Below are positions 42,226 to 50,085 of a stretch of 64,000 nt of DNA, in pieces. Every line of letters begins with the position of its first letter. The stretch's first letter is position 1. The stretch covers positions 1,396,565 to 1,460,564 of the forward strand of contig JAHBUV010000001.1 in the NCBI GenBank assembly GCA_019637915.1, given 5' to 3'. The translations under genes were made by a program, and so were the position numbers. Under the pieces are notes generated by a model that was given only the letters and a program-made list of their open reading frames with translations, had not been told where the DNA came from and made no database searches. This stretch comes from Pseudobdellovibrionaceae bacterium (GTDB taxonomy: Bacteria > Bdellovibrionota > Bdellovibrionia > Bdellovibrionales > Bdellovibrionaceae).

Positions 42226-42788
42226 AAATCCAGCTTCAGGCCGAAGCCCGAGCTGATGAAATTCTCCAGGGCCTGCGACCAGCCGTTGTTGCTGGCGGAA
42301 AGCAGGCCCTGTTCCAGGATGGTCATGAACCATCCGACGCTCAGGACCCTGCCCTCATCCAGCTTCCGCCCCACGGAAAATCCCAGGGTCAAACCGCCGC
42401 GGATTTTGGTCACATCGTAATAATTGTCGTCGTCGTACTTGCCGGGGCTCGAGATGAAATACTCCTTGCGGCTCGTCGACGTCAGCACCACCCCCGCCTC
42501 CAGGGGACGCAGCACCCATTCATCCCGTTCAATCCGCCAGGGCGAATAGACGTAGCTCAGGTTCAGCTGGCGGATCGGCCCCATCAGCTGGTCGGGCGTG
42601 TAAGCCCAGGAAAAACCGAAGTGGTGTCTGCCTTGGGGCGTGTAGGACAGGCCCAGATTGTACCGGCCGAGGTACCCGCCGCTCGTCGAGGTCATGGACC
42701 AGTCAGCGCGTGACATCGAGGGCGCGGCAAGAATCACCAACGCACTCATAGAGAGTATCGCCGTTGCCATCCGATTCCAGAATCGCAT
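42222..42788 (-). CDS. Small outer-membrane beta-barrel-like protein
   Basis: The 188-residue protein has a signal peptide (cleavage near SRA-DW). The mature part has alternating hydrophobic and polar strands rich in Tyr, Gly and Ser, ending in FGLKLDF with a terminal phenylalanine, the usual barrel assembly signal. No family is recognised. AAGGAG lies 8 nt before ATG 42788. The 5' end overlaps the upstream metallophosphoesterase gene by 86 nt, and the stop overlaps that of the convergent interrupted gene (CTAA). Confidence 0.75.
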   Translation of the reverse strand: MRFWNRMATAILSMSALVILAAPSMSRADWSMTSTSGGYLGRYNLGLSYTPQGRHHFGFSWAYTPDQLMGPIRQLNLSYVYSPWRIERDEWVLRPLEAGVVLTSTSRKEYFISSPGKYDDDNYYDVTKIRGGLTLGFSVGRKLDEGRVLSVGWFMTILEQGLLSASNNGWSQALENFISSGFGLKLDF

Positions 42789-43521
42789 ACTGCTCTCCTT
42801 CCACGCGGGCCACCGTGCGCACGTGCAAAGTGCCGACGGTGCCGCCGCCGAAGACGTGCTGATGGCCGTTCAGGGACAAACGCAAATTCGAACTGCCCGC
42901 CATGAGCGACGACAGCAGGTCCGTCTGCCCGGCGGAGTAATACAGGGGGTTGTCGTAGTTCACGTGCTGGAACAAATAGGCGGGCTCCGACGTCAAGGTC
43001 AGTTGATCCTCGAGCCATTCGGGCTCGAACCCGCCGCGGCCGTTGAACTCGAGGGAGTTCGAGTTGAACAGCACGAAACGGCGTCCTTTGTAGACGAAGC
43101 TGTTGTTGTAGGCGCCGAAGATCTTGTCGTACAGGCCGATGCCCGCGCCGATGGCGTCGTGGTTGCCGATCACCACGAGCATGGGATGGGCCGACTGCCG
43201 CATGATCTCGGTGAAAATGTCGTACTCGTCGTTGGTGGAAATGTTGGTGAAATCGCCCATGTGGATGATGAAATCGAGATCCAGGCCGTTCAGGCGACGG
43301 ATGGTTTTCTCCAGGTCCGAATAGTTTTGGTGCGAATCCGTGATCACGCCGATGCGCAAAGGTCCTGAACCCGGATCCCAGGCCTGCAATTCCTGAATGG
43401 TCGCGCCGTTGTGGCCCCGGACCGAAGTCCTGACCTGCGTCCCGAAAGGGGAATCCACCTTCGCCCAACAGCCGCTGAGCAGGACGCCGATGGCGAGAAG
43501 CTGCAGGAACTGGCGTTTCAT
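42703..43521 (-). CDS. Metallophosphoesterase lipoprotein
   Basis: The 272-residue protein has a lipobox LSGC (Cys18) and the calcineurin-like metallophosphoesterase motifs in order: VITDSHQN, GDFTN, GNHD, a His in FQHVNYDN, and GHQH. It should hydrolyse phosphoesters outside the cytoplasm. ATG 43521 is preferred because GGAG precedes it and because the signal peptide begins there. It diverges from the MarR gene across a 122-nt gap with a palindrome, so MarR may regulate it. Confidence 0.88.
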   Translation of the reverse strand: MKRQFLQLLAIGVLLSGCWAKVDSPFGTQVRTSVRGHNGATIQELQAWDPGSGPLRIGVITDSHQNYSDLEKTIRRLNGLDLDFIIHMGDFTNISTNDEYDIFTEIMRQSAHPMLVVIGNHDAIGAGIGLYDKIFGAYNNSFVYKGRRFVLFNSNSLEFNGRGGFEPEWLEDQLTLTSEPAYLFQHVNYDNPLYYSAGQTDLLSSLMAGSSNLRLSLNGHQHVFGGGTVGTLHVRTVARVEGEQYAILESDGNGDTLYECVGDSCRALDVTR

Positions 43522-43550
43522 GGGGCTCTCCTTTAAATCGTTCCGACGAA

Positions 43551-43596
43551 CAATCATTCCTATTACTGATAATATCATTGGCGATAGGAACGATTG
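43551..43596. promoter_or_regulatory. Imperfect inverted repeat, candidate MarR operator
   Basis: Two 13-nt arms (43551-43563 and 43584-43596) match as inverted repeats with one mismatch. Between them lies a smaller dyad TGATA-A-TATCA. The right arm overlaps the -35 box of the MarR promoter, a typical place for autorepression. Confidence 0.5.
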
Positions 43597-44516: not shown

Positions 44517-45878
44517 ATAGGAAGCCCGGATTTCACCAAAAAACCCACCGTCCACGTCGTTGGTGCGGGCCTTGCCGGCAGCGAATGCGCCTTGCAATTG
44601 GCCCACCGCGGTTTCCCCGTGATCCTGCATGAAATGCGTGGCGGCATGATGACTCCGGCCCACAAAACCTCGGATTTCGCCGAGCTCGTCTGCTCGAACT
44701 CCTTCGGCAGCCTCGGCGAGAATTCCGCGCCGGGCGCCCTCAAGTGGGAGGCCGAGCAACTGGGGAGCTTCATCCTGAAAACCGCGAAGGAAGCGGCCGT
44801 GCCGGCGGGGCAAGCCCTGGGCGTCGATCGCGAACTCTTCGCCCGCGAAGTGTCGCGCCAGGTGCGCTCGCACCCCCTCATCGAGGTGCGCGAGGAAATG
44901 ATTTTCCGCCTGGCCGACGTGTCACGCCCCGCCGTCATCGCCACGGGACCCCTCACCCACGAGGATCTGGCCCACGACCTGCAACGCCATTTCGGCGACG
45001 AATTCCTGTACTTCTTCGACGCCATCGCCCCCATCGTCGACGCGGACTCCATCAACACCGACATCGCCTGGAAACAGGATCGTTACGACAAAGGCACGGC
45101 GGATTATTTCAACTGCCCGCTGAACAAAGAGGAGTACGACCGCTTCATCGCGGAAGTTCAAAACGCCCGCAAGATCGAACCCAAACATTTCGAGACGACG
45201 GATTTCTTCGAGGGCTGCATGCCCATCGAGGCGATGATCGACCGCGGCCCGGAAACGCCGCGCTTCGGCCCGATGAAACCGGTGGGCCTGAAGGACCCGC
45301 GCACCGGCCGCGAGCCCCACGCCGTCGTGCAACTGCGCCAGGACAACAAAGAAGCCACGGCTTACAACATCGTCGGTTTCCAGACGCGCATGGCTTACGG
45401 CGAGCAAAGCCGCGTCTTCCGTCTGATCCCGGGCCTGGAAAACGCCGAGTTCCTGAAACTCGGCAGCATCCACCGCAACCTCTACATCAATTCACCGAAG
45501 CGCCTGAACCGCGACCTGTCGAGCCGCCATGACCCGTGGCTGTTCTTCGCCGGTCAGATCACCGGCGTGGAAGGTTACTTCGAATCCACCTGCATCGGTC
45601 TTTTGGTGGCGCGCTTCCTCGAACAAAAGCTGCGGGACCTCCCTTTCCAGGCCCCGCCGCGGGAAAGCGCCATGGGCTCCCTGCTGGAAGCCATCACCGA
45701 TCCCTCGCGCGCCGACCACTTCCAGCCGACGAACATCAATTTCGGGCTCTTTCCCCCGTTGAATGAAACGGACCTCGCCGAGCTCGGGCGCAAAGCCCGG
45801 GACAAGTCCGTCAAAAAAGATCGTCAGCTGAAAAAGGCGCGGGAAGCCCTCGGCGCCTGGATGCGACAGCTCACTTGA
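44517..45878 (+). CDS. trmFO: Methylenetetrahydrofolate-tRNA-(uracil-5)-methyltransferase TrmFO, start codon non-canonical
   Basis: The flavoprotein (about 453 residues) makes 5-methyluridine at position 54 of tRNA using methylene-tetrahydrofolate. The FAD-binding start VHVVGAGLAGSECALQLA, HKTSDFAELVCSNSFGS, and the GQITGVEGYFES segment are family hallmarks. The Rossmann start lies upstream of the first TTG (44592), so that cannot be the true start. No ATG, GTG or TTG occurs in frame between the upstream stop at 44442 and the Rossmann motif. The best site is ATA 44517, 6 nt after GAGG. ATC 44514 or CTG 44457 are alternatives, and a sequence error is possible. It is convergent with the lipoprotein gene, overlapping by 8 nt. 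Confidence 0.88.
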   Translation: MGSPDFTKKPTVHVVGAGLAGSECALQLAHRGFPVILHEMRGGMMTPAHKTSDFAELVCSNSFGSLGENSAPGALKWEAEQLGSFILKTAKEAAVPAGQALGVDRELFAREVSRQVRSHPLIEVREEMIFRLADVSRPAVIATGPLTHEDLAHDLQRHFGDEFLYFFDAIAPIVDADSINTDIAWKQDRYDKGTADYFNCPLNKEEYDRFIAEVQNARKIEPKHFETTDFFEGCMPIEAMIDRGPETPRFGPMKPVGLKDPRTGREPHAVVQLRQDNKEATAYNIVGFQTRMAYGEQSRVFRLIPGLENAEFLKLGSIHRNLYINSPKRLNRDLSSRHDPWLFFAGQITGVEGYFESTCIGLLVARFLEQKLRDLPFQAPPRESAMGSLLEAITDPSRADHFQPTNINFGLFPPLNETDLAELGRKARDKSVKKDRQLKKAREALGAWMRQLT

Positions 45879-47448
45879 CGCCGAAAGGCAGGTCGATGGC
45901 CGGGATCGGCCGCGGTTCCGTGCGCAAGGCGGGGCGCCGCTGGTCGTGCTCGGGCCAATGCGGCTCGAGGCGGTAGAAGGCTTTTTCATAGCCCTCCGGG
46001 CCCGTCGCCGAAATCACCGGCAGACCTTTCACCTGGGGAAAGTGATCGCTTTCGAAATCCGCCTGCGGACCCAGGGTCAGGATCAGGCGCAGGCTCGAGG
46101 CGTTGCTCTTCATCACCGCTTCCATGGTTTTTTTCCGCCAGGCGCGCGACGCCGCGAGCAGCTTTTGCACTTCACGTGAATCCAGGCGCGAGGTGTCCAC
46201 CGGCAGAGTGCGCAGGATCAGGTAACGCGAACCCACGCCGAGCCCCTGCAAAAACGCCTGCAGGCGCTGGCCTTCCCGGCCCACCAAAGCGCGACCGGCC
46301 GCCTCATCCTCGCCGACGGCGGTCTGATCCGCGATCACCAGCACTTCCACGTCGCTCCAGCGGCCGCGGTACAGGGCCCGGCCCGGCAGGGGATTTTGTT
46401 CCGTCAGGATTTTCGCCCACATCTCCCCCGGCCCGCGGTCGAACAGCGGCGAGGAGGAATCGACCCACAAAGGAGCGCCGGCCTCCAGCCCGCCCGTGTG
46501 GTCGGGAAAACCGAAGTGCACGTCGCCGCGGGGAAGAGCGCGCACGCGCCCTTGGAAACCGCGGTCGAACTTCTGCGCCAGGGCTTTGCCCTTGGCATCG
46601 CGGTCGGGCTCCAACGCCCAACCCGCTTCGCGCCATTCGCGCAGATACCCCAGGACGGCCTGGCTTTTCACCAGCACGGTGGCGTCGGCCGGATTCATCG
46701 GCGGCAGCCCCAGCACCCTCGCGTCCCGCGACAGGCCCAGCAGGCCCGCCAGCGTGCCGTAACGTCCCTGCATGGCGCAGGTCTCAAGGCGGATTTCCGG
46801 CTTCACCTCGCACTGGGCGCCCCACAAGCGCATGGACTGCGCGAAGAAACGCTGCGTGTCCGCGCCGGTGACGAGCACCAGGCTCAAAGACTCCCGGTTG
46901 TTTTCAAAAACGCTTTTCAGCAAACCCTGCCTCACCGCCGGCGGCGCCTTCGCCAGGCCCTGCAGGAACAGATAGCCGCGATCGATGCCCATGGTGGAGA
47001 GGATCTCCTGCAGGTAGGCCCCCGCCGGGCCGCTGAAGGCCTTGCGCGTGTCCCGCTCGCTGCCGGTCAGATCCTCGCCCACGATCAGCACCTTCACCTG
47101 GTTTTCCCCCAGGCGGCCGCGATAAAAAACATTCGGGTGTTTCAGCAAAGCCGCCAGGCGACGTCCTGATTCCGTCGTCACGTCCGGCCCCAGATCGTAG
47201 TCCCACGGATCACCGGCGTCGAAGCGCACCTGTTCCGGCAACGGGGCCGCCAGCAGGTTCCTGGATTTTTCATCGGCGGGAAGAGTCTCTTTCTCGGAAG
47301 CGATCACGCGCAGCTGTTCGAGGTTTTCAGGGGTCCACGCTACGCCCGGTCGCGTGTCGACCGGAGCGCTCGTTTGGGCGCGTTTGCTCTGGCAGGAGAT
47401 GAGCAGCAGAAGGACCGGCAGAAAAACCGAAACAAGACCCTGTCGCAT
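45871..47448 (-). CDS. Lipoprotein with two uracil-DNA-glycosylase-like segments
   Basis: The 525-residue protein has a lipobox LISC (Cys19). Residues about 115-275 read VKVLIVGEDLTGSERDTRKAFSG, then AGAYLQEILSTMGIDRGYLF and, later, LVLVTGADTQRFF and PPMNPADA, which align by eye with family 4/5 uracil-DNA glycosylases. A second copy (about 365-500) reads VEVLVIADQ, then EAAGRALVGREGQRLQAFLQGLG, and later LILTLGPQAD. The catalytic motif positions look altered: no clear GEAPG and no HPS. It is exported, unlike DNA repair enzymes. It lies 105 nt downstream of a secreted S1/P1 nuclease gene in the same direction. The fold assignment is inference. Confidence 0.6.
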   Translation of the reverse strand: MRQGLVSVFLPVLLLLISCQSKRAQTSAPVDTRPGVAWTPENLEQLRVIASEKETLPADEKSRNLLAAPLPEQVRFDAGDPWDYDLGPDVTTESGRRLAALLKHPNVFYRGRLGENQVKVLIVGEDLTGSERDTRKAFSGPAGAYLQEILSTMGIDRGYLFLQGLAKAPPAVRQGLLKSVFENNRESLSLVLVTGADTQRFFAQSMRLWGAQCEVKPEIRLETCAMQGRYGTLAGLLGLSRDARVLGLPPMNPADATVLVKSQAVLGYLREWREAGWALEPDRDAKGKALAQKFDRGFQGRVRALPRGDVHFGFPDHTGGLEAGAPLWVDSSSPLFDRGPGEMWAKILTEQNPLPGRALYRGRWSDVEVLVIADQTAVGEDEAAGRALVGREGQRLQAFLQGLGVGSRYLILRTLPVDTSRLDSREVQKLLAASRAWRKKTMEAVMKSNASSLRLILTLGPQADFESDHFPQVKGLPVISATGPEGYEKAFYRLEPHWPEHDQRRPALRTEPRPIPAIDLPFGVK

Positions 47449-47526
47449 GCCGAATCCCCCTTCCCACCGTGGATGAATCCATTTCGGCTCGAAGGGGGTT
47501 CCGGTGAAGTCTTGTTCAGGGGTCCG

Positions 47527-47546
47527 GCCCCGACGGACGTCGGGGC
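47527..47546 (-). other. GC-rich hairpin after the S1/P1 nuclease gene
   Basis: An 8-bp stem (47527-47534 with 47539-47546) with a 4-nt loop lies 7 nt past the nuclease stop on the minus strand. No U tract follows, so it may slow decay or reduce expression of the downstream lipoprotein more than terminate. Confidence 0.4.
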
Positions 47547-47553
47547 TAGAAAA

Positions 47554-48525
47554 TCAATACTCGAGGTAGCGCTCGCGGCGCTCGCCCTGATTGGCGCGGG
47601 GGCCGGCGGTGATGAAATCAGCCAGGCGGCCGACGATCATTTCCAGGCGTTTCACGAATTCGAGTTGCATGTTCGGGGGAGCGGCGTTGGCGAAGATCCG
47701 GTTCAGCACGTCGGCGATGCGCACGCCGGCGGCGTAAACCCGCTGATCCAGCACGGGCAGGGCGCGGTCTTGGTACTGCGATTGATTGGTTTCATAGCGA
47801 CGGTCGTACATCAGCTGACGCTGCGGGCCCTGGGATTCGCGCAACCAGGCTTCCGGATTGTCGCGGGTCGGTCCTTTCAGGACGTCGCTCTCGCGGCCAC
47901 GGAAGTTTTGCAGCAACCAGCGGGCGTAAAGGGCGGCGTAATCGGCGTTTTGCGGCTGGCCTTCGAAGATTTCGCCGTGACCGGTGAAGATCATGCCCGT
48001 GTCCCACACCTGGTGAAGATTGCCCGGGCGGTTGAACCACACGAGGCGGATGGTGTTGCCGCCTTTGTCGTCGGCGCGGCCCGTGTGAAAGGGCTGGTGG
48101 AGATCGCCGATGAAGTGCACCAGCAGTTTCAAGGCGACTTGTTTTTGTTCGTAAGTGGTCTTGGGATCCTGCAGGGTGCGCTCGGCGATGATGATGGCGC
48201 TGATGGAGCCGCCCTTTTTGCGATCCGGCTCCGACAAGCGGCCGACGTGATCGAGGAAGTTCGTCGTGTCCGCGACGTTCTCGAAGTGGTACCAGTAGGT
48301 GTGGGCGAGGGCGTTGTCGCTTTTGATGGTGTCGGCCCAGAAGGCCACGTCGGCGAGGCTCTGACCGCGGAGCAATTGCTGAACGGCGGTTCTGGCTTGG
48401 GGGCTCAAAAAGCTGTCGGCGATGGCGCCGGTGGTGCGATGACCCAGGCTTCCCCAACCCCAGGCGGTGGCGCTCACGAACAAGATGGAACAAATCCCCA
48501 AACCCCGACGCAACAAGCCTTTCAA
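47554..48525 (-). CDS. Secreted S1/P1-type nuclease
   Basis: The 323-residue protein has a signal peptide and a mature start at or near WGSLGHRTTGAIA. The N-terminal tryptophan and the following His are zinc ligands in this family. Other ligands are in FWADTI, LLVHFIGDLHQPFHTG, and NLHQVWDTGM. It cleaves single-stranded DNA or RNA and 3'-nucleotides outside the cytoplasm. It appears to start at TTG 48525, with AGGAGG 5 nt upstream. It carries about 40 extra C-terminal residues. A role in degrading external nucleic acid is likely. Confidence 0.9.
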   Translation of the reverse strand: MKGLLRRGLGICSILFVSATAWGWGSLGHRTTGAIADSFLSPQARTAVQQLLRGQSLADVAFWADTIKSDNALAHTYWYHFENVADTTNFLDHVGRLSEPDRKKGGSISAIIIAERTLQDPKTTYEQKQVALKLLVHFIGDLHQPFHTGRADDKGGNTIRLVWFNRPGNLHQVWDTGMIFTGHGEIFEGQPQNADYAALYARWLLQNFRGRESDVLKGPTRDNPEAWLRESQGPQRQLMYDRRYETNQSQYQDRALPVLDQRVYAAGVRIADVLNRIFANAAPPNMQLEFVKRLEMIVGRLADFITAGPRANQGERRERYLEY

Positions 48526-48702
48526 GCGACCCCTCCTGAAAAGTAATTATGCACTTTATGCAATTTTTGATGCCTAAAATAAATGATTAATTCGAGCCCC
48601 AAAGGATTTGACTCAGGGCGCGTGAAAAAACTAACCGGTCCCTGACAAAAATCGGCGCCCGGCTTGCCCCCCTCTCAAAACAGGGGTACTTCCCCCCTCC
48701 TT

Positions 48703-50085
48703 ATGAGTTGGAGAGACTTGGGTTTTTCAGAAAAACTCGGTCGTCTCGGCGCCGCCTTCGGCCTGTCTGTTTTCGTGACCACCATGAACGGTTGTGAAGG
48801 GATGAGCTGGGGTGAGGCAACCCTGGCCGCCAAAGTGCAAAGCCAGGGCGAGATCCGGGTTCTCACCCTCGAACACCCGCTTGTCGACGAGTCCCAAGGG
48901 GCCGGCGGCCGGCAAGGAATGGAGCGCGAACTGCTGCTCCATTTCGCGGACACCTATCAGCTCAAAATCCGTTTCATCCGCAAAAAGAATCTCGACGACC
49001 TTTATGACAGCCTGCGGCGCGGGGAAGGCGACGTGGGCGCGGCCCGTCTGTGGATGAACGAACAGCCCAATCAATTCAGCTCCGGCCCCGCCTTCGAAGA
49101 AAGCCACTTGAGCCTCTTTTGCCGGCGCCGCCTCAAAATCGCCCATCTCCGCGACCTGTCCCGCCGCCGCGTCGGCCTGGCCGGCAAGGACAATGTGCAG
49201 TCCCTGGACACCCGCCTGCGCTACCTCGTGCCCGACGTGGAGCTGCAGTTGCGCCCCCTGGGCCGGGCGCGGTCCTTGATCCGCGACGTCGCCGAGGGCC
49301 GCCTGGATTGCGCGGTCACGGAGAACCTCGAGGGCGCGCAGTTCTCGCGCGCCTGGCCGCAGGTCGAAAAGGTCACCGCCCTCACCGAAAACCGCTCCCT
49401 GGCCTGGGTGGTGCGGCCGCAACGCACGGACCTCGCGGCCCTGATGCGGGCCTGGTTTCAACGCGCCAGCCGCGACGACGAAATCATGCGCATCGAAGAT
49501 CCTTACCGGGCGAGCCTCAGCAGCCTGGACATGGCGGACACGCGGCGTTTCCTGGTGAACCTGCGCCAGCGCCTGCCGCGCTTCAAAGAGTCCTTCCTCG
49601 AGTCGGCCCGGGAGCATGGCCTCGATTGGCGGCTCGTCGCCTCCATCGCTTACCAGGAATCCCATTGGAATCCGGAGGCCCGCAGCTACACCGGGGTCCT
49701 CGGCATCATGCAATTGACCCAGGAAACCGCGGATGACGTGGGCATTGAAGACCGCACCGATCCCCAGCAAAGCATCTGGGGCGGGTCTTATTACATCCGT
49801 TTTCTCCTCAATCGCATGCCCAAAGCCGTCAATTCGCAGGAGCGCACGGCTTTGGCTTTGGCCGCTTACAACTGCGGGCTGGCGCATTTGCGCGATGCCC
49901 AGGGCCTGGCCATCGAACGGGGTTTGAATCCCTATTCGTGGCGGCACCTGAAAACGGTTTTGCCTTTGCTGGAAAATCCCGAGATCGCCGCCCGTCTGCC
50001 GGCCGGCGCCGCCCGCGGCCGCGAGACCGTGCAGTTCGTGGAGCGCGTGCGCTCCTTCCACGATCTCTGGCGCATGGTCGACTGA
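48703..50085 (+). CDS. mltF: MltF-type membrane-bound lytic transglycosylase
   Basis: The 460-residue protein has a hydrophobic N-terminus ending in a possible lipobox NGC (Cys31), a periplasmic-solute-binding-type domain (about 50-265), and a C-terminal lysozyme-like domain. The catalytic Glu319 is in IAYQESHWNP, followed by LGIMQLTQETA and LALAAYNCG. It cleaves peptidoglycan glycan strands with anhydro-ring formation. No clear ribosome binding site precedes ATG 48703. The 177-nt gap with the divergent nuclease is AT-rich, with two TTATGCA direct repeats near 48549. Confidence 0.92.
   Translation: MSWRDLGFSEKLGRLGAAFGLSVFVTTMNGCEGMSWGEATLAAKVQSQGEIRVLTLEHPLVDESQGAGGRQGMERELLLHFADTYQLKIRFIRKKNLDDLYDSLRRGEGDVGAARLWMNEQPNQFSSGPAFEESHLSLFCRRRLKIAHLRDLSRRRVGLAGKDNVQSLDTRLRYLVPDVELQLRPLGRARSLIRDVAEGRLDCAVTENLEGAQFSRAWPQVEKVTALTENRSLAWVVRPQRTDLAALMRAWFQRASRDDEIMRIEDPYRASLSSLDMADTRRFLVNLRQRLPRFKESFLESAREHGLDWRLVASIAYQESHWNPEARSYTGVLGIMQLTQETADDVGIEDRTDPQQSIWGGSYYIRFLLNRMPKAVNSQERTALALAAYNCGLAHLRDAQGLAIERGLNPYSWRHLKTVLPLLENPEIAARLPAGAARGRETVQFVERVRSFHDLWRMVD

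Follow-up and report, generated by a model that had tools for sequence, protein, structure and literature searches.

A shortened, motif-altered tandem UDG-fold lipoprotein beside an exported S1/P1 nuclease, and its wider family in Bdellovibrionota

The lipoprotein and nuclease genes

The window analysed here (the whole stretch of 64,000 nucleotides from a Pseudobdellovibrionaceae bacterium) carries on its minus strand, to which all coordinates below refer, an open reading frame for a 525-amino-acid lipoprotein (45871..47448) in which a structure model, joined for the first half by Pfam, places two uracil-DNA glycosylase (UDG)-fold domains. The protein begins MRQGLVSVFLPVLLLLISC|QSK and, as read from the sequence and not by a trained predictor, residues 1–19 form a lipoprotein signal peptide (47392..47448) with a hydrophobic stretch and a lipobox (LLLLISC19) whose Cys19 comes last, in keeping with the export as a lipoprotein originally proposed. 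Domain 1 (residues 80–322; 46483..47211), delimited by the Pfam UDG match, the match to BdiUNG and a family N-domain profile, aligns with relatives over motif A, which reads GED (residues 124–126; 47071..47079) where relatives have GQD or GQE, and over the motif B position, which reads Asn252-Pro253 (46690..46695) where relatives have His-Pro. It also holds a Cys213…Cys224 pair (46777..46812), found too in short-type relatives, that may form a disulfide. Domain 2 (residues 340–524; 45877..46431), defined by a match to PDB 4zbx and a family C-domain profile, lacks motif B and stops ahead of the C-terminal ~90 amino acids of the family.

Upstream on the same strand, as had been predicted, lies the complete gene of a secreted S1/P1 nuclease (47554..48525), with a TTG start after AGGAGG and a predicted mature end at Trp24. 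Its residues 24–278 cover positions 1–257 of the 258 of PF02265 (E=7e-57), and its alignment to S1/P1 nucleases of the PDB (E=1e-28, residues 24–279) begins at W24, so that it has both the full domain and the mature N-terminal Trp of this group. It is a full-length member with no notable difference from known S1/P1 nucleases; what is new is its link with an exported UDG-fold protein. The lipoprotein and nuclease genes have GC3 values of 0.80 and 0.81, respectively, and their neighbours are similar.

The 105-bp gap past the nuclease stop contains the GC hairpin noted in the original prediction (47527..47546), which has no U-tract. It is present in a single copy in the genome, and we rejected a dispersed repeat; we also rejected an intrinsic terminator, since it is absent from the terminator scan and terminator-like sites in the region numbered 4, with 3.9 expected. 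A second strong hairpin in the RNA fold (47450..47504) pairs the purine-rich ribosome-binding stretch ahead of the lipoprotein ATG, and the gap as a whole folds more stably than any of 200 shuffles (z=-3.95; 0/200).

UDG fold and active-site motifs

Half 1 of the lipoprotein matches the Pfam UDG family directly (PF03167, residues 114–205, E=1e-7, passing its cut-off) as well as the family N-domain profile (E=4.5e-14). Half 2 had no direct Pfam match; it matches half 1 by BLASTP (E=7e-8, 27% over 132 amino acids) and the family C-domain profile (E=5e-22), and that profile in turn matches BdiUNG (PDB 5gn2, Blr0248 of Bradyrhizobium diazoefficiens; E=8e-8), as the N-domain profile does by itself (E=4e-9). 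In structure searches, residues 80–322 of the moderately confident window model (pLDDT 69.6) matched BdiUNG (Z 12.8) and residues 340–524 matched the family 4 UDG 4zbx (Z 11.8, rmsd 3.5, 150 residues aligned). A long relative was modelled with higher scores (pLDDT 88.7, pTM 0.88), its C-domain (505–773) matching BdiUNG (Z 21.5, rmsd 2.8, 237 aligned) and its N-domain (44–412) a family 4 UDG (Z 13.5). Structure prediction thus gave the alpha/beta fold of the UDG superfamily in each half; a fold in neither, the outcome that would have told against the original prediction, did not occur, given the BLASTP match between the halves, the profile chain for half 2 and the 4zbx match. Several single searches were weaker: the N- and C-domain profiles of long members were barely similar to each other (hhalign probability 19%, E=0.0012), phmmer gave no PDB match for the isolated C-domain of one relative, and a Pfam scan of ten relatives missed UDG in five and reached just E=0.06 in one more. 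That the UDG resemblance is due to chance, for which one could cite the confinement of the Pfam match to half 1 and the moderate window model, is nevertheless so improbable in the face of independent profile, duplication and structure evidence that we discard it.

Both segments had been likened to family 4/5 UDGs; the fold was confirmed, and the class was not. The only Cys residues of the window copy are 19, 213 and 224, and the four Cys of the 4Fe-4S cluster, on whose absence we reject family 4/5 membership, are also not to be found in 27 relatives, which have 0–4 Cys beyond residue 41, the two four-Cys members having two of theirs in the far C-terminus. Family 4 UDGs (4zbx, 1vk2, 1ui0) and UdgX do share the fold (Z 10–13.5), and their NCBIfam models match half 1 at E about 1e-7, far below the models' cut-offs; in contrast to these enzymes, the present proteins are exported, lack the four-Cys FeS cluster and have GED or GQD in motif A instead of GE(A/G)PG. 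In long members, motif A (GQD) and motif B (HPxxLS) resemble GQDPY and HPSPLS of family 1 Ung (PMC10359453), from which the family differs in being tandem and exported. Only weak vaccinia D4 rows of the Ung kind were among the structure matches listed. Each VIA-align list is dominated by one domain, so that a family missing from it is uninformative.

The nearest characterized protein is BdiUNG, a BdiUng-like broad-specificity UDG. It is the top PDB match of both family domains by sequence profile and the top structure match for window half 1 and for the C-domain of the long relative, and the alignments share with it the GQD motif A, the NT..(Y)SV.GQ pocket strand and the HP motif; profile and fold matches to Blr0248 (E=4e-9 and 8e-8; Z 21.5 and 12.8) fit this class, of which excision of uracil, hypoxanthine or xanthine from DNA is a further mark. 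Unlike this 272-residue chain with its single UDG domain, the family is exported and tandem and carries long insertions.

Residues of the N-domain are strictly conserved in the long members: Q98, D99, H102, N136, H377 and P378 are kept in 27/27, giving GQD, the base-pocket Asn and the motif B HP in every one examined, and N270 and Q336 in the N-domain insertions are likewise invariant. The window copy retains D126 of GED, the putative catalytic acid of motif A, and has lost both the base-pocket Asn and the motif B His (H to N as aligned, or H to P if shifted), in which it also departs from BdiUNG; the altered catalytic positions of the original prediction are therefore real. Motif B of Mug/TDG (MPSSSAR) is also without the His (PMC10359453), so the UDG superfamily as such does not demand it.

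Relatives and partner genes in Bdellovibrionota

Relatives of the lipoprotein are present in 79 of the 368 genomes of the phylum, which record titles give as Bdellovibrionota, usually as proteins of 640–950 amino acids with an apparent signal peptide. By a crude test 55 of 59 family sequences have a hydrophobic N-terminal stretch, an internal start having been taken by the script in the remaining four. A single-query scan of genome contigs from P0001 gave no relative, but alignment A2 did recover relatives. We conclude that the family consists of exported tandem proteins of two BdiUNG-class UDG domains, is phylum-wide and is undescribed, and that the window lipoprotein represents it in a shortened form with altered motifs: ~90 C-terminal residues and most N-domain insertions of the full-length proteins are gone, while half 2 is conserved with up to 45% identity. 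No member turned up in g6, a large genus (by inference probably Bdellovibrio) with many closed genomes, and the suggested link to predation is not supported. A phage origin was rejected, as a pattern-limited scan gave no relative in viral contigs and the UDG proteins had no match in PHROGs, where the NADAR-like protein described below matches two families of unknown function.

Family genes often adjoin the gene of a NADAR-like protein, an amidohydrolase or an exported nuclease. The pairing seen in the window recurs, an S1/P1 gene lying within about 110 bp of the UDG gene in 3/79 genomes, in three arrangements (G014 and G010 show it too); co-occurrence across the phylum is weak (43/79 genomes with the family vs 114/289 without, p=0.02, such p-values taking no account of shared ancestry). 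The relatives have stronger partners, namely an exported NADAR-like protein, an amidohydrolase resembling guanine deaminase and a nuclease of the EEP type. The first occurs in 71/79 genomes with the family and 42/289 without (46/50 vs 13/131 by genus) and lies within 3 kb of the UDG gene in 10 genomes, against 0.13 expected; the second occurs in 36/79 vs 9/289 genomes and lies within 3 kb in 19 of the 36. One-strand gene runs (UDG-S1/P1-NADAR and UDG-EEP-NADAR) were seen in L041 and L089. Conversely, 44 of 69 loci have no member of the four partner families nearby, and the window genome has neither the NADAR-like protein nor the amidohydrolase.

All seven NADAR-like partners scanned match both Pfam NADAR and gp30.3 (best E=2e-9 and 7e-6), although the one listed in full falls short of the Pfam cut-offs, and the PDB match is to YbiA (2b3w, E=3e-6). 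The partner resembles proteins of DarT1/YarT-NADAR operons and phage gp30.3 (PMC11125620), from which it differs in being exported; no ADP-ribosyltransferase toxin was recognized by eye in the listed, partly annotated neighbourhoods.

Possible functions of the exported set

DNA glycosylases are intracellular repair enzymes, and we know of no earlier case of extracellular base-excision chemistry. Among open-licence PMC papers, none was found on a secreted, periplasmic, extracellular or exported uracil-DNA glycosylase, on a secreted or periplasmic DNA glycosylase, or on a UDG, tandem UDG or UDG-like lipoprotein in Bdellovibrionota, and the sole paper combining UDG, signal peptide and Bdellovibrio is unrelated by its title. 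If the reading below is true, an exported and duplicated UDG family that spans the phylum, keeps conserved catalytic motifs and is linked to exported NADAR, deaminase-like and nuclease genes would be the first such chemistry known to us, and it would offer a concrete, assayable protein set in relatives of predatory bacteria.

The idea that the window pair binds and processes foreign nucleic acid at the cell surface keeps its tandem UDG folds, export signal, altered residues and S1/P1 link, and loses the family 4/5 class and the link to predation. From the computed fold, export signal, family, co-occurrence and neighbourhood we infer catalysis, substrate, division of labour and location as follows. 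We see an even chance that the exported set (UDG family, nuclease, NADAR-like protein and amidohydrolase) breaks nucleic acid down outside the cytoplasm, with the window copy probably binding it or acting otherwise. An exported EEP or S1/P1 nuclease would cut foreign or prey nucleic acid, the UDG domain would then remove bases, a step suggested by its motifs, and the NADAR-like protein and amidohydrolase would deal with base adducts and bases. In full-length members the N-domain retains the residues expected of a functional uracil/deaminated-base glycosylase; the C-domain is a diverged copy, with nucleic-acid binding as its probable role. The window copy, to which only the nuclease remains as partner, is probably a binding or altered-specificity version, most likely holding nucleic acid, or acting on another base, beside the S1/P1 nuclease at the outer membrane. 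Against this reading stand its loss of the motif B His, pocket Asn, ~90 C-terminal residues and most N-domain insertions, the two missing partners in its genome, the 44/69 loci without partner families and the weak S1/P1 co-occurrence; uracil in DNA also looks unrewarding as a food source, and the true substrate may therefore be something else. More tentatively, the proteins could make up a Bdellovibrionota base-stripping system outside the cytoplasm (a surface tandem UDG, a NADAR N-glycosidase, an exchangeable EEP or S1/P1 nuclease and a guanine-deaminase-like hydrolase) that dismantles or demodifies foreign nucleic acid, with the window as a reduced version of UDG and nuclease.

It is rather unlikely that the UDG domains act instead on small molecules (free nucleotides, nucleosides, or flavin- or NAD-derived N-glycosides) in a periplasmic base-salvage pathway with the NADAR-like protein and amidohydrolase. 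The best NCBIfam matches of these partners are indeed a riboflavin-intermediate N-glycosidase (E=2e-7) and guanine deaminase (E=2e-10, 1e-13), and the invariant N270 and Q336 might seal the pocket around a small molecule, but EEP and S1/P1 nuclease genes are recurrent neighbours and the nearest characterized fold is that of a DNA glycosylase. Improbable, too, is a weapon or shield in which surface base excision and a nuclease destroy prey DNA or modified-base phage DNA. The functions of UDG, gp30.3/NADAR-like protein and nuclease all concern modified or damaged DNA, and a bacteriovorus passage (PMC7925074), as far as that passage goes, counts in its favour; yet the UDG proteins have no match in the PADLOC defence library and the NADAR-like protein a marginal one (E=0.002, 0.0035), viral contigs yielded no relative by the pattern scan, and the family is confined to 79/368 genomes and was not found in g6. 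We give equally little credence to the window copy being a decaying remnant with a coincidental S1/P1 neighbour, as its mere 525 amino acids, lost motifs and missing partner genes might imply, for the frame is intact with its lipobox, GC3 is that of the neighbours, the Cys pair is common to short-type relatives, half 2 keeps its identity of up to 45%, and G014 and G010 likewise have an S1/P1 gene next to the UDG gene.

UDG fold and catalytic residues of the lipoprotein

The 525-amino-acid lipoprotein of the window (45871-47448, minus strand; lipobox Cys19) is encoded head to tail with, and 105 bp after, an exported S1/P1 nuclease of 323 amino acids on the same strand (47554-48525, TTG start; PF02265, E=7e-57; E=1e-28 to PDB S1/P1 nucleases, starting at residue 24), both genes being like their neighbours in GC by codon position. 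The original prediction of a tandem uracil-DNA glycosylase (UDG)-like lipoprotein beside a secreted S1/P1 nuclease was borne out by Pfam, profile and structure matches. Residues 114-205 match Pfam UDG (E=1e-7) and the two halves align with each other (BLASTP E=7e-8). In an AlphaFold2 model with 27 relatives in the alignment (pLDDT 69.6, pTM 0.67), half 1 (residues 80-322) matched BdiUNG, Blr0248 of Bradyrhizobium diazoefficiens (PDB 5gn2; Z 12.8, 193 aligned, rmsd 3.2; Foldseek E=8.5e-6), and half 2 (residues 340-524) the family 4 UDG 4zbx (Z 11.8, 150 aligned, rmsd 3.5), in agreement with the UDG fold proposed for both. These halves also match the N-domain (E=4.5e-14) and C-domain (E=5e-22) profiles, respectively, of a family of apparently exported tandem-UDG proteins of Bdellovibrionota (the UDG family). 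The long relative L080 gave a far better model (pLDDT 88.7, pTM 0.88), with Z 21.5 between its C-domain and BdiUNG (237 aligned, rmsd 2.8) and Z 13.5 between its N-domain and a family 4 UDG, and 5gn2 was found by sequence alone with both the N-domain (E=4e-9) and C-domain (E=8e-8) profiles. Counting against the UDG fold, the N- and C-domain profiles compared weakly with each other (hhalign) and a Pfam UDG match was absent in 5 of 10 relatives scanned. The family 4/5 assignment first suggested is weakened, since no plausible FeS-cluster Cys set was found in any member examined and the profiles find BdiUNG.

All 27 aligned long members share Q98, D99 and H102 (GQDxTH), N136, Q145, H377 and P378, the invariant Asn being what we take to be the counterpart of the uracil-binding Asn of Ung. 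These residues resemble the stretches GQDPAQHE, NTFLYSVYGQ and THPT of BdiUNG, as well as the Ung motifs GQDPY and HPSPLS, as given in PMC10359453. The C-domain of the family retains ADPxGxDD...ALTGxRGQ, without motif B. Shorter-type relatives (~690 amino acids) carry GQE and PHPG. Catalytic positions are altered in the window copy, as had been predicted: it has GED, NP where relatives have HP, and has lost the pocket Asn (a gap or Gln163 in the alignment). Because the motif-B His and this Asn are missing, the window copy more probably serves for binding, or as an enzyme whose specificity has changed, and on these residues the case for its activity appears weakened. Its Cys213/Cys224 pair recurs in short-type members, which fits both an exported protein and a relationship to the short type. 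In many long-type relatives a lone Cys close to the C-terminus is part of a CxxxF-like ending (e.g. residue 849 of the L080 protein).

Extent of the family and its exported partners

The scope of the original prediction can be widened to an exported UDG module found phylum-wide. With a single sequence as query, 18 of 59 genomes gave matches, among them that of the window, and alignment profiles detected the family in 33/140 genomes of the order and 79/368 of the phylum. A scan of genome contigs, bounded by its two patterns so that other phyla may also carry the family, yielded 42 loci, 36 titled Bdellovibrio-, Bacteriovorac-, Halobacteriovor- or Oligoflex- taxa and six more vaguely. Uncut relatives are mostly 640-950 amino acids in length, the window protein being the shortest apparently whole member seen. 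A crude Kyte-Doolittle test found a hydrophobic N-terminal stretch in 55 of 59 sequences (relatives plus window; duplicates kept, one fragment omitted), the script having picked an internal start in the other four.

Three partner types in relatives, NADAR-like proteins, amidohydrolases and EEP nucleases (PF19580, E=1e-25), start with signal-like hydrophobic stretches. Each of the seven NADAR-like proteins compared scores against both the gp30.3 and the NADAR family of Pfam (E=2e-9 and 7e-6 at best), with matches to PDB YbiA (E=3e-6) and, below cut-off, to the NCBIfam riboflavin-intermediate N-glycosidase (E=2e-7). Genes of this kind include L041:10830-11501, L089:9762-10424, L104:5287-5913 and L113:4056-4724. 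NADARs are described as reversing guanine ADP-ribosylation (PMC11125620). The amidohydrolase (~700 amino acids; L032:6234-8408, L136:6-2081, L138:7850-9961), tied to UDG and NADAR genes, has guanine deaminase as best NCBIfam match (E=2e-10 and 1e-13), far below cut-off, and is therefore termed deaminase-like only. In two genomes (G113, G367) it adjoins NADAR on a contig other than that of the UDG gene.

Kinship ignored, NADAR-like proteins occurred in 71/79 genomes with the UDG family vs 42/289 without (Fisher 1e-36; still 71 of 79 with strong matches only) and, by genus, in 46/50 vs 13/131; the amidohydrolase (E up to 1e-20) in 36/79 vs 9/289; and S1/P1 (PF02265, E up to 1e-3) in 43/79 vs 114/289 (p=0.02). 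Exported NADAR/gp30.3-like lipoproteins or secreted proteins were present in 113/368 phylum genomes, 42 of them without the UDG family. Judged from match coordinates, linkage within 3 kb was observed for UDG and NADAR in 10 genomes (0.13 expected) and for UDG and amidohydrolase in 19/36 (0.065 expected), while S1/P1 adjoined UDG in three genomes among the matches listed (~0.025 expected, post hoc, assuming copy number 60 and a 700 bp target). Phylum-wide searches found no NADAR in the window genome, in G001 (the sole same-genus genome) or in the genome G014, and no amidohydrolase in the first two.

Neighbourhoods were compared at 69 loci (the window, L028-L044 and others, obvious duplicates removed). 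Within 3 kb of the UDG gene lay NADAR-like genes in 11 loci and EEP nucleases in seven (one further at 3.2 kb), both counts biased upward by seven loci (L122-L128) picked for a known nearby NADAR, amidohydrolases in 11 (none among L122-L128) and S1/P1 in three; 44 loci had none of the four families within this distance. Partners differ in order and strand from locus to locus, evidence against synteny that was simply inherited; L031, L033 and L100, however, have a wider syntenic block in common. UDG, S1/P1 (95 bp) and NADAR (overlapping) follow on one strand in L041, as do UDG, EEP (124 bp) and NADAR (6 bp) in L089, and an EEP-NADAR pair is divergent to UDG in L122, L123 and L124; from these arrangements EEP and S1/P1 seem interchangeable in one nuclease slot, that of S1/P1 in the window. 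Some loci encode, between the UDG gene and that of the amidohydrolase, small exported proteins (L136:2094-2987, L135:3894-4742, L138:6357-7838), for which no Pfam match rose above cut-off.

Proposed role and setting of the window genes

We propose that the exported nuclease would cut foreign nucleic acid outside the cytoplasm, that the C-domain of the UDG family would hold it, and that the N-terminal UDG domain may detach uracil or deaminated bases by cleaving their N-glycosidic bonds, enzymes like BdiUng being described as broad-specificity (PMC8307549); NADAR and amidohydrolase would process adducts and bases. Scavenging of nucleic acid by predators has a precedent in the secreted Bdellovibrio nucleases described in PMC7925074. 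The suggested role in predation is weakened by the failure to find the UDG family in the large genus g6 in the search of 368 phylum genomes; if g6 is, as is probable, Bdellovibrio, the family is no general requirement for predation.

RNA folding of the 105-bp gap gave a strong fold (z=-3.95) with two hairpins, one of them already pointed out in the original prediction. The second strong hairpin (47450-47504) base-pairs the purine-rich stretch preceding the lipoprotein start codon, and translational control by it is possible. A promoter scan of the region found no promoter-like site, which is compatible with co-transcription or with a promoter type outside the scan. A convergent GidA/TrmFO-type gene (44655-45878; PF01134) overlaps the 3' end of the lipoprotein gene by 8 bp. 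A divergent gene (48664-50085) encodes a presumably MltF-like SLT lytic transglycosylase whose N-terminal part is of the solute-binding type. The product of 42703-43578, a metallophosphoesterase, starts with a signal-like sequence and a Cys, and the next gene on that strand encodes a small exported protein.
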